Below, piece after piece: positions 196 through 22,145 of a stretch of DNA of 34,798 nucleotides; position 1 is the stretch's first letter; every line of letters begins with the position of its first letter. Source of the stretch: Verrucomicrobiota bacterium. Lineage in GTDB: Bacteria > Verrucomicrobiota > Verrucomicrobiia > Limisphaerales > JACDHS01. The notes under the pieces are model-generated. The model did not search any database. It was not told the origin of the DNA and worked only from the letters and a program-made list of their open reading frames with translations. The translations under genes were made by a program, and so were the position numbers. Location of the stretch: positions 1 through 34,798 of the forward strand of contig JACDHS010000046.1 in assembly GCA_013820875.1 (NCBI GenBank). Direction: 5' to 3'.

Positions 196-219
196 GTCAA
201 CGGGCCACACACTGCAAAT

Positions 220-2049
220 TCACGAATTCGTTAAAAAGCTGGGTTTACGGGCGTGGAGAGAGCGAATGGCATAGCGATGATGTTCTGCATTCATGGCGCT
301 GAAGAAGTCAGTGGTGGTTTTGTGCTGGGGTTTTTTCTGACGGCTGCGCCAGTGGATGAACAAACTGTTGCTGAAGCGGCGGAAGATTCCCATGACGCGC
401 ATGGATTGAGGAGCGCGCACGCGGCATAGGTCATCGAGATGGGAGACATCGAGGCGCTGGTGCAGGCCATTTTCGATGCCCCAGGCGTCCCGGTTTTCCT
501 TGAGCCATTGGCTGGCGTTGAGTTCTTCGGGCGGAAGGCTCGTGATGAGGGCCACGGTTTGGGGGCGATGGTGGCGCAAGTTTCGGCGCAATGACGCAAC
601 TTGCTCGACGCAGGGGAAGTCTACCTGTTCGGCGCTGGCGACCGCTGAGCGCAGTGTGCGCACCTCGAAGTGGCCTTTGTTGAACTCACGGCTGCCCGCC
701 AGCGTTGGCGTGGTGTCCTGAGGGAAAAAAATGGCCGTCGGAGCGGAAACAAGTTTTTCGATATTGGCCTTCACTGTGGGCTGGTTGTCTTTGGCGGTGA
801 ACAGGTAGTCAGCGCCATGTTCAAGAACCAGTTCATGGGCGCTCTGGTCCTGGGTGTGGAGGGCATCGAGACTGACTCTGCGCCCGTCCAGATCAAGCTT
901 TTTGAACAACTCGCGGGCAACGGGGATCTCATTGGTTTTGGTGTCGACGATGGCGCTGCCCAGGAAGTGCTGGCTGGGAACGGTCACGGCGGTGAGCACG
1001 GAATGACCGCCGCCGTGCCGGGGCCGCTTTCCGTCCAGGACGATCAAATCTTTAATCGGAGCAGTGCCGCGAATCTGGGTTTGTATTTGCAAAAACATCG
1101 TCTCCAGTTCGTCGCCGTTGAGATGTTCCATCATTCGACAAAAGGTCGGCTGGCTGGGCGCGGGATAGCCGTCGGGCTGGCGGCGAACACCCAGAGCGTG
1201 GCGTTGTCTTTGGCTCAAGCCTTTGGCGAATTTGGCCAGATCTTTTTGTCCCCGGGGCGCACCACAGAGATGGGCCAGCAGAGCGATTGCGACCAAGCTC
1301 CAAAGTGGATAGATTCCGATGCGCTGACGGTAATCGGACAAGCCCTTGAGATGCTCCACCATGGAACGGATTTCCTCCGGGCGCTGAGTGCTGCGCGGGT
1401 GGGTTTTAGCCTCCACCATGAGCAGCGCGGGTTTGAGTTTTTCGGCTTGAAGGCTGCGCCGGGCGTTTTTACACAGTTCCCGCGCGAAGAGCCGCTTGGG
1501 TTTGTTGTGCTGGACATAAAAATCGCGACGCACCCGGCCGAACCCATCGGTCGCGCCCAGTTCCTCCCATCCGTTGGCCGTGTAGACGGTGCCGCAAAAT
1601 TGTTCAGGATCGACAAACGTTTCGACCAGCACGACCGGATGCCCATAGCGTTCCTGCCAATCAGCACTGAGCCGATCCAGCGTCAGACGCAACGAACGAG
1701 ATCCCAGATTGGGGAACGTTTTGTGCGGCAGCAGCAGGAAACGGCAGTTGTTCACCACCAGTGGCAAGCGCCGACGGCGTTGCTCTTCGCTCCAACCGAT
1801 CCACTTGTCACGCGAACGCAATCGACGCGACGCCGCGCAAAACACCAACACCCCCAGCCAATCGCCCTCAGAATCAACGATGGTATAGAAGAGTTGCTCA
1901 CCCACCGCCTGGACATCGTCCAAGTAATGATGTTCGGCCAGCAAACGGTGCGCTCGGGCCTTGGTTGTCGAGCATGGAAGCAGTTCAGATTTAACCTCTC
2001 TCAGAGAAACTAAAGCGCCTGATTGCGCCGTATGATTGGTCTTCGACAT
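220..2049 (-). CDS. ISAs1-type transposase with N-terminal DruA-like (DUF4338) domain
   Basis: This 609-aa protein has two parts. Residues about 15-205 match the DUF4338/DruA pattern: AEHHYLDD, LGVLVFCAASRRLRSRDKWI, VVNNCRFLLLP, ERYGHPVVLVETFVDPEQF and ANGWEELGAT. Residues about 228-312 look like the DDE_Tnp_1-associated helical domain (HLKGLSDYRQ...). Residues about 330-570 are the DDE nuclease of the ISAs1 family, with candidate catalytic residues D339 (IVLDGK), D395 (SLDALHTQ) and E526 (GIENGLHQRLDVSH); the usual HW before IEN is AWG here. The frame is uninterrupted, so the enzyme may be active. I could not find terminal inverted repeats or a target duplication on either side. DruA is otherwise known from the Druantia anti-phage system, but no other Druantia gene is nearby, so transposition is the likely role. 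ATG start at 2049. Confidence 0.88.
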   Translation of the reverse strand: MSKTNHTAQSGALVSLREVKSELLPCSTTKARAHRLLAEHHYLDDVQAVGEQLFYTIVDSEGDWLGVLVFCAASRRLRSRDKWIGWSEEQRRRRLPLVVNNCRFLLLPHKTFPNLGSRSLRLTLDRLSADWQERYGHPVVLVETFVDPEQFCGTVYTANGWEELGATDGFGRVRRDFYVQHNKPKRLFARELCKNARRSLQAEKLKPALLMVEAKTHPRSTQRPEEIRSMVEHLKGLSDYRQRIGIYPLWSLVAIALLAHLCGAPRGQKDLAKFAKGLSQRQRHALGVRRQPDGYPAPSQPTFCRMMEHLNGDELETMFLQIQTQIRGTAPIKDLIVLDGKRPRHGGGHSVLTAVTVPSQHFLGSAIVDTKTNEIPVARELFKKLDLDGRRVSLDALHTQDQSAHELVLEHGADYLFTAKDNQPTVKANIEKLVSAPTAIFFPQDTTPTLAGSREFNKGHFEVRTLRSAVASAEQVDFPCVEQVASLRRNLRHHRPQTVALITSLPPEELNASQWLKENRDAWGIENGLHQRLDVSHLDDLCRVRAPQSMRVMGIFRRFSNSLFIHWRSRQKKPQHKTTTDFFSAMNAEHHRYAIRSLHARKPSFLTNS

Positions 2050-2240
2050 CCCGTAGCGTGAAAAACTTTGCGCGCAATGTTCAGCACCTTCTACTAAGTC
2101 GCTCTTGGAAAGAGCTTATCTCGCCCAGCGGAATTATCCGTGCTCACCACGAATTGCGCCAAAAGTTTTGTTACCCGGGGTGGGGAGTAAGAGAGGAGAA
2201 AGAAATACGTTGTGCAGAAGTGATTGTTACCGTGGCTTGA

Positions 2241-3099
2241 ATGGACAAAACTATGAGCCAGAGGACACGAGTAGAAGTATTGACGAAGTTGCGGCGGCGT
2301 TATGAAAAGGCCGGCGCTGAGTATAAACGAAAGCTGCTGGATCAAGCGCAAGAGTTGCTGGGGTATCATCGCAAAGCGGCGATCCGGGCGTTGCGTGGGC
2401 CTACGGGGCCGCGGATTATCACCGGTCGCCCGGTGAAGTATGATTCTGGGGAGCTGCTACCGTGGCTGAGTCCGATCTGGGCGGCGACGGACTATGCCTG
2501 CGGACAGCGCCTGGTGGCGATGTTGCCGGAGTGGATACCTGCCTACGAGCAACACGAACGGCGACTGCCGGAGGAAGCGCGTGAAAACCTCTTGATGACC
2601 AGTAGTCGGACGCTGGACCGATTGTTGGAACCGTTGCGGGTTTCAGAGAGGCAGACGCTCGCTAACGAAGCCTGGGACGTTGCTGCGACAACAGATTCCG
2701 ATTCGCGGGAGCGTATGGGAAGAAGGCAAGGCGGGTTGGCTGGAAGTGGATACAGTGGCGCTATGCGGAGGGAGCGTGGCAGGAGAATTTGTCTGGATGG
2801 TGGACGGGGTGGATTACGCGACGACATGGGTGGAAGTGCGAGCGATGTGGGGGCGGGGTCAGGCTGGAACATTGGAGGCATTGCGCGATGTCGAAGCCAG
2901 CTTACCCTTCGATCTACTGGGGCTGGATAGTGATAATGGCGGAGAATTTCTGAATCATCACGTGATGAGTTGGTTGCAGAAGCGACCTCGACCGGTATTC
3001 ATGACGCGGAGCCGGCCTTACAAAAAGGACGACAATCCGGCGGTGGTGGATTTGATCAACATGCTGGTCAAGGGAGCCTACGGGCAGTTGCTTACTTAG
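2241..3099 (+). pseudogene. Degenerate rve-type (ISNCY-like) transposase, frameshifted and truncated
   Basis: Frame one runs from ATG 2241 and encodes a helix-rich N-terminus (LLGYHRKAAIRALRG, then RPVKYDSGELLPWLSPIW and SRTLDRLLEPLR). Homology then jumps to the +1 frame near 2640-2655, where RGRRSLTKPGTLLRQQIPIR is read at about 2647-2706. That frame continues with the integrase core: GWLEVDTVALCGGSVAGEFV contains the first catalytic Asp and LLGLDSDNGGEFLNHH the second. After MTRSRPYKKDDN the usual HVEQKNW block, which carries the catalytic Glu, is absent; unrelated residues lead to a stop at 3097-3099. One frameshift plus loss of the Glu segment makes this a dead element. The exact frameshift base is not certain. 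Confidence 0.8.
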
Positions 3100-4004
3100 T
3101 GGCAGGTTTTGCGTAACCACGTGAGCGGTTCGTCGACCAATTTGTTCTGTTTTGTCAAAACCCTGACTTCTGCCTTCCGCAATTCCTCACCAAGCCCGGT
3201 ACGTGCGTGTTGCTATTTGGCATCCATAAATTTCTCGGATTTGATTTTTGCGGCAGGTTCAAAAGCTTCTTCCGGACAAATTGTCGAAAAATAAGGGATT
3301 TTTCACTTTAGGTCGCCGGAAACGTGGGCAACACAGTGTGTTGGCCACTTTGAAACGCCAGCAACGGCGTCCGCACGGTGTGTTGGCCACTTTGAAACTC
3401 CAGCAACGACGTCCGCATAGTGTGTTGGCCACTTTGAAACTCCAGCAACGACGTCCGCACAGTGTGTTGTCCACTTTGAAACTGCAGCAACGGCGACCGC
3501 ACAGTGTGTTGTCCACTTTGAAACTGCAGCAACGACGACCGCACAGTGTGTTGTCCACTTTGAAACTGCAGCAACGACGACCGCACAGTGTGTTGTCCAC
3601 TTTGAAACTGCAGCAACGGCGACCGCACAGTGTGTTGGCCACTTTGAAACTGCAGCAACGACGACCGCACAGTGTGTTGTCCACTTTAAAACTGCAGCAA
3701 CGACGACCGCACAGTGTGTTGCCCACTTTAAAACTGCAGCAACGACGACCGCACGGTGTGTTGTCCACGTTCCGGGGGACTCAATTTGGCGGGCGCGGCA
3801 AGTCCCTTGTGATCTGCTCGATCCCGACACCATCCACCTTTGAAACGGCAGTTAACAGCCGCAAAAAAGCGCGAAGCCGGGGCGTTCCCGGAACCGCCGG
3901 TCTTTGTGAGCCTTCAACCTGAAAACCGCATTTGGAATGACTATAAAAAATACAAAAGCAATTTTACACTTTGATCCTGGCGCTTTGAACCTTAAACAAT
4001 CCCC
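3100..4004. other. Gene-free stretch around the 42-bp array
   Basis: Apart from the tandem array, I see no gene, hairpin terminator or promoter that I can support here. Long open frames cross the array on both strands, including one from about 3248 to 3922, but they owe their length to the stop-free repeat and start at a weak TTG without a ribosome-binding site. The left part (3100-3331) follows directly after the dead transposase and the right part (3778-4004) leads into the membrane protein gene at 4005. Confidence 0.6.
3332..3777. repeat. 42-bp tandem repeat (minisatellite), ten full copies plus a partial one
   Basis: Full units begin at 3332, 3374, 3416, 3458, 3500, 3542, 3584, 3626, 3668 and 3710; an eleventh starts at 3752 and loses similarity after about 17-20 bases. 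Most units begin CACAGTGTGTTG, carry CACTTTGAAACTGCAG in the middle and end in ACGACGACCG. Units 1-3 differ from the rest (CGCCAG or CTCCAG instead of CTGCAG, and GTCCG instead of GACCG), while units 5 and 6 are identical, so the array has a diverged left edge and a homogenised core. The unit is a multiple of three and free of stops in several frames. On the + strand it reads HSVLSTLKLQQRRP over and over. A possible decayed extra unit lies at about 3834-3865. There are no variable spacers. Confidence 0.95.
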
Positions 4005-22029: not shown

Positions 22030-22145
22030 GATCATCCGGACGTGGGCTTGAGACCATCCAGGCCGTTTCCGGATGATCCGGAAGTGGGCTTGAGACCATC
22101 CAGACGGTTTCAGGATGATCCGGAAGTGGGCTTGAGACCATCCAG
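22030..22145. repeat. Second 42-bp tandem array, nearly three copies
   Basis: Units start at 22030, 22072 and 22114; the third breaks off after 32 bases. Each begins GATGATCCGGAAGTGGGCTT (first copy GATCATCCGGACGTGGGCTT) and continues GAGACCATCCAG. The last 12 bases vary slightly between copies. On the - strand the unit reads WMVSSPLPDHPETV. The sequence is unrelated to the array at 3332, but the period is the same. Confidence 0.9.

Follow-up and report, generated by a model that had tools for sequence, protein, structure and literature searches.

Our analysis of the window (the whole stretch of 34,798 nucleotides, from a Verrucomicrobiota bacterium) points to an insertion sequence whose transposase carries an N-terminal GNAT domain of the Mom type, probably a DNA-modifying one, a reading to which we give a probability of about 0.5. 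The fusion on which it builds, of a DruA domain to an ISAs1 transposase, is confirmed. The open reading frame at 220-2049, which the sequence-only reading had reported without its strand, is real and encodes one protein of 609 residues on the minus strand, ending 220 bases short of the contig end (Table 1). The DUF4338 pattern which that reading had seen in the N-terminal part was recovered by a profile search against Pfam (PF14236 DruA, residues 34-176, E 1.1e-26, 94 bits against a cut-off of 27), with a match that spans only profile positions 65-226 of 297. The rest of the protein is, as had been proposed, an ISAs1 DDE transposase (NCBIfam NF033564, residues 253-563, E 2.5e-37, 129 bits against a cut-off of 70) with an intact triad of acidic residues (D339, D395 and E526), and Pfam also places a DDE_Tnp_1-associated region at residues 232-321 (E 3.7e-11). 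These E-values, together with relatives of the same architecture in other genomes, exclude a chance match. The genome of the window has a single DruA match and a single ISAs1 match, both in this gene.

Table 1. Features of the element in the window (positions in the window; residues in the 609-residue protein).
Feature	Position	Strand	Remarks
Probable insertion sequence	210..2142	minus	1933 bp, ends uncertain; homology to the ends of L015/L067
Transposase gene	220..2049	minus	609 aa; DruA/Mom-like domain and ISAs1 DDE transposase
DruA (PF14236)/Mom-like GNAT domain	1435..1968	minus	residues about 28-205
Mom-equivalent residues of the domain			H41, Y42, R103, N114, S117, D147, Y156
DDE_Tnp_1-associated region	1087..1356	minus	residues 232-321
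ISAs1 catalytic region	361..1293	minus	D339, D395, E526
Homopolymer tract TTTTTTTCCC	722..731	minus	place of the frame change in all late-site relatives; in frame in the window copy

The Mom protein is described as a GNAT enzyme that acylates adenine at N6 (PMC7824862), and DUF4338 has been called a GNAT domain in a paper that leaves Mom unmentioned (PMC10853773). Using profile-profile comparison, 36 transposon DruA domains matched 11 Mom proteins with 97.7% probability (E 2.2e-12 over 159 columns), and a repeat with a second DruA alignment gave 96.4%; the DruA profile found no solved homologue by sequence alone. A structure predicted for residues 1-216 (pLDDT 61.5 from five sequences, hence of moderate confidence) had Mu Mom (PDB 8bv8) as its best PDB match with two different aligners (Foldseek E 3.6e-6; second aligner Z 13.5 over 169 residues). 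This predicted structure has the GNAT fold: the matches that follow Mom are mainly GNAT acetyltransferases, and of the 999 chains, 852 aligned at Z 5 or more, with Mom and GNAT enzymes in the leading places and a number of large pre-ribosome proteins interspersed. The correspondence extends to the active site, as H41-Y42, R103, N114, S117, T144, D147, G153, Y156 and A158 of the window protein align with H48-Y49, R101, N111, S114, S136, D139, G146, Y149 and A151 of Mom. Mom S114, the partner of S117, is the residue altered in PDB 8bv8, which is described as "inactive mutant S124A" (the alignment has Ala in place of Ser). The constellation of the Mom family (His, Arg, Ser, Asp, Tyr) is thus present in the window domain, and it is kept across 83 transposon-borne domains (His in 80, Arg in all 83, Ser in 82 with one Thr, Tyr in 82, and at the Asp position Asp in 68 and Glu in 13). 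The transposon domain is therefore homologous to Mom and shares its constellation. The differences are also clear: the window domain has the motifs RDxxIGW and E[TS]FVD, which differ from Mom, and it scores 18.2 bits with the Pfam Mom model (PF25680), under the cut-off of 27.1 (locus L005 reaches 26.1 bits). Mu is a transposing phage whose Mom is a separate protein under phage control, whereas the window domain is fused to a transposase.

The likeness to DruA of the Druantia system, which had been put forward from the sequence, proved distant when the profile check was run. The PADLOC DruA model gave the window protein 16.6 bits over 52 residues, as against 360 bits for a DruA1-type protein (L055) from the same phylum. 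Classic DruA proteins (PADLOC PDLC00001/2; 378-426 aa, one of them in a longer frame) belong to the same Pfam family and have a VG..LRY, RDxxIGW and G/S..Y motif in common with the window domain. In the seven that we aligned (L137-L139, L161-L164), Gly replaces the Mom Ser in every case and Val replaces the Arg in five, while the Tyr and the RDxxIGW Arg are retained; His and Asp were not seen, in an alignment of distant sequences where gaps are uncertain and where an HW in three of the classic proteins could be a displaced His. As the Mom residues are kept in the transposon domains and several are lost in classic DruA, the transposon version is Mom-like and only distantly Druantia-like. Among ten proteins neighbouring the window element, none matches a defence model, and membership of the domain in Druantia is rejected on PADLOC scores, neighbourhood and residues. 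Druantia DruA may descend from a transposon module of this kind. Two loci on the Druantia side deserve separate mention: L055 (1178-4837, minus strand, genome G282) encodes a 1220-residue protein with a DruA1-type domain and an SspF-like part, an architecture close to the DUF4338-DndF fusions mentioned in PMC10853773, and in L164 the classic DruA gene (2541-3872, plus strand) overlaps a next gene that reads like a sacsin-type ATPase (LLQNAEDEGA), the two perhaps forming a defence pair.

The fusion is recurrent. PF14236 is present in 41 of 387 genomes of the window phylum. Two other phyla, which we reached via an Acidobacteria locus and a Desulfonatronum locus, have it in 22 of 247 and in 35 of 247 genomes, with classic DruA counted in. 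Assigning partner classes by the transposase downstream of the DruA domain, we found in the window-phylum set 33 domains fused to ISAs1 (multiple copies counted), 8 fused to a Tn5-like and 1 to an IS701-like transposase, 6 directly ahead of IS66 TnpC and 1 ahead of another DDE_Tnp_1 gene; for 11, mostly fragments, no transposase was found, and 12 more were cut by contig ends. Nearly all intact domains of this phylum with enough downstream sequence are thus fused to, or stand directly before, one of five transposase kinds. The same partners were found again in the two other phyla, where IS66 is the commonest, and in total the domain has transposase partners in at least four phyla. A profile search of genome contigs with a narrow alignment gave four loci. 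Among plasmids the domain was matched in one species, and the fusion is also found on a gammaproteobacterial plasmid pair. Phage or viral carriage is rejected: two scans of viral contigs yielded no relative, and phage records matched the transposase part only. The proposal that DruA is a module of mobile elements therefore stands as regards its recurrence beside or fused to five transposase kinds, but not as regards the Druantia protein, to which the likeness is distant. The IS66-linked genes encode about 300 residues, of which roughly 110 form an N-terminal extension, and lie directly before TnpC (L003, L007, L011, L035, L045 and L070 in the window phylum; L136, L142, L143, L151-L153, L155, L158-L160, L177 and L178 in the others), so that they are apparently accessory genes of IS66 elements. 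In the limited literature covered, we found no account joining DruA with IS66 or with Mom, and none of a DruA-ISAs1 fusion, an absence that does not prove novelty; RefSeq already lists a fusion from Candidatus Thiodictyon syntrophicum, labelled simply "ISAs1 family transposase".

The relationships of these proteins were also examined in trees. In the transposase tree, the DruA-ISAs1 elements are united in a single supported group, separate from nine canonical ISAs1 transposases; of the 29 rows in the group, 25 have DruA and 4 lack it, some of the latter at contig ends. The nine canonical transposases lack the domain, so that the case named by the sequence-only reading as one against it, a general ISAs1 domain, was not upheld and is ruled out. 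The DruA-domain tree separates the versions fused to ISAs1 from a single clade (100/99) of those with Tn5-like, IS66, IS701-like and IS4-like partners, and the trees indicate that partners were swapped only a few times. The nearest relatives of the window (L067, L015 and L068) are all from Verrucomicrobiota or the same class. The element shares with canonical ISAs1 (NF033564) its DDE transposase and DDE_Tnp_1_assoc region, and its relatives have the terminal repeats and target duplications (9-10 bp) of a family defined by terminal inverted repeats and an 8-10 bp target duplication; both are clear in L067, L015 and L120/L121. It differs by an additional N-terminal domain of about 200 residues, by its place in a separate clade and by the split of its relatives over two frames.

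This split is a consistent property of the clade. In 23 of 23 other DruA-ISAs1 elements for which both halves were found (a few of them with further damage), DruA and the first DDE part share a frame, and the remaining part, which includes the catalytic Glu, is in another, whereas the nine canonical ISAs1 transposases are unsplit. Of the 17 elements in which the overlap between the frames was measured, 16 have a single homopolymer tract (C/T, T or A) within it and the other has T3C6; tracts occur at 6.6 per kb in the overlaps versus 0.21 per kb elsewhere in these genes (about 30-fold). Four elements (L010, L020, L069 and L092) shift earlier, between the two Asp residues. Tracts of C followed by T mostly need a -1 change and those of T followed by C need +1. 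In the latter group the tract is preceded, at a distance of 0-4 bases, by hairpins, which are perfect in L101 and L105; their enrichment versus other positions in the same genes is modest, with fractions from 0.25 to 0.009 which, combined by hand using Fisher's method, give about 0.002. The downstream frame is unlikely to be translated separately, since a start codon between the tract and the conserved part is missing from 14 of 20 late-site elements. The classical ribosomal site C_CCT_TTT fits L026, L052, L067, L102 and L104 but mismatches the register of L029, L046, L053 and L051; these misfits, and shifts in both directions, favour transcriptional slippage as the probable cause of the frame change. 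A similar case is known from an IS630-type element of Roseiflexus, where a T5C5 tract with a hairpin directs a one-base-deleting transcriptional slippage (PMC5009743), and DDE_Tnp_1 transposases with frame changes in both directions have been described, with transcriptional realignment favoured (PMC3711429). The Roseiflexus element resembles L101, L105 and L100 in its T-then-C tract, 5' adjacent hairpin and +1 change; it belongs to another transposase family, and in many DruA-ISAs1 relatives, by contrast, the tract is C-then-T, the change is -1 and hairpins are not enriched.

Split elements have moved. Candidatus Thiodictyon syntrophicum (pTs417/pTs485; WP_216644545.1 and WP_100917962.1) has the same DruA-ISAs1 architecture as the window, in two frames annotated as two unrelated genes instead of the single frame of the window copy, and its two copies are flanked by different 10-bp target duplications (cctcgcaggc and gataccctgg). 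Genome G048 has four identical split copies, of 1906 bp where complete. In this genome, L048, L049 and L050 are identical 1906-bp copies with clean inverted repeats, CAAGGTAACTT, and, unlike in other relatives, no target duplication is visible. In genome G375, two copies (L015 and L040) that are 99.3% identical have tracts of C10T7 and C7T5; the tract may be unstable or phase-variable, or the difference may come from an assembly error.

Among the DruA-ISAs1 fusions found in this analysis, only the window copy is in frame: it keeps the TTTTTTTCCC tract, without a notable hairpin, yet reads through it where 23 relatives are split. The copy may have escaped control permanently, or it may represent one of the states through which an unstable tract passes. 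At position 210, its left end, CACTGCAAATTCAC, has the place of the 3' repeat of L015/L067 with 4 mismatches; it pairs at 9 of 12 positions with the right end, CACGGATAATTC (minus strand, from 2142), which is 93 bases upstream of the ATG, a distance of about 92 in L015. We looked for a target duplication at these ends and found none, and with the imperfect ends this means that the copy may no longer be able to move. Further along the window, remnants of another transposase, broken over two frames, lie at 2241-3099 (weak integrase-core match, E 0.0097), which places the element within a cluster of mobile-element remnants. A 42-bp unit is repeated 10.8 times at 3314-3768 (93% matches; open in several frames on both strands), and another 42-bp unit, of different sequence, 2.8 times at 22030-22145. 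PADLOC defence models had no match among ten neighbouring proteins of the window, most of them in the first 12 kb.

Base modification by the domain has one main rival, a GNAT fold without catalysis that binds transposon ends or dimerises, which we consider unlikely though far from negligible. Such a module would fit the N-terminal place, the usual site of DNA-binding domains in many transposases, its presence in unrelated transposases, and the classic DruA proteins that keep the fold without the Mom residues. However, the 83 domains hardly vary at the His, Arg, Ser and Tyr positions, a constancy that would be needless for pure binding, and the ends of ISAs1, Tn5-like and IS66 elements are quite different, which argues against the reading of specific ends. 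An active acyltransferase could also have a substrate other than DNA, such as tRNA or a protein, be it a host factor or the transposase itself, and the folds next after Mom are indeed polyamine, antibiotic and protein acetyltransferases; we regard this as improbable, since sequence profiles and structure alike put Mom first among the matches and every partner is an enzyme that handles DNA. It is very improbable that the domain is a Druantia DruA defence gene which travels on a transposon and guards the host against phage. The name of the Pfam family speaks for it, but the 16.6 bits over 52 residues, the ten neighbours without a defence-model match and the differences of classic DruA at the Ser, Arg, His and Asp positions all speak against it.

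For the frame split, the alternative is that the relatives were inactivated by indels at unstable homopolymers and that the window copy is the normal intact form. Homopolymers are hot spots for indels, the two G375 copies differ in tract length, and both the window copy and L094 are in frame. This scenario is nevertheless quite unlikely given that all 23 other DruA-ISAs1 elements are split while the nine canonical ones are not, that both frames are open with tracts concentrated in the overlaps (6.6 versus 0.21 per kb), and that identical split copies moved recently.

In the mechanism that we propose, the domain would be an active acyl-type transferase that, during binding of the transposase, modifies a DNA base, most likely adenine, either in the transposon or in its target. 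This modification would mark or protect the transposon ends or the intermediate and so aid transposition; we found no literature tying base modification to the transposition of DruA elements. In the wider clade, the full-length protein would be made only through a frame change at the tract, probably by transcriptional slippage, which would hold transposase levels low, while in the window copy both transposase parts are already in one frame. A broader reading, for which we see clearly less than even odds, is that a widespread set of transposons, from at least four DDE families, has its own Mom-type base-modifying enzyme, fused to or beside the transposase, and that Druantia DruA is a derived branch in which catalytic residues were lost.

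If the domain modifies DNA, transposons would chemically alter bases while moving, which to our knowledge is known for no described bacterial insertion sequence. This would account for the keeping of the same module by unrelated transposases, and the unexplained DruA of Druantia would gain a biochemical ancestry that is testable at defined residues. The frame split, for its part, would add ISAs1 to the families with programmed frame changes, for which a 2016 review named IS1, IS3, IS5 and IS630 (PMC5009743).
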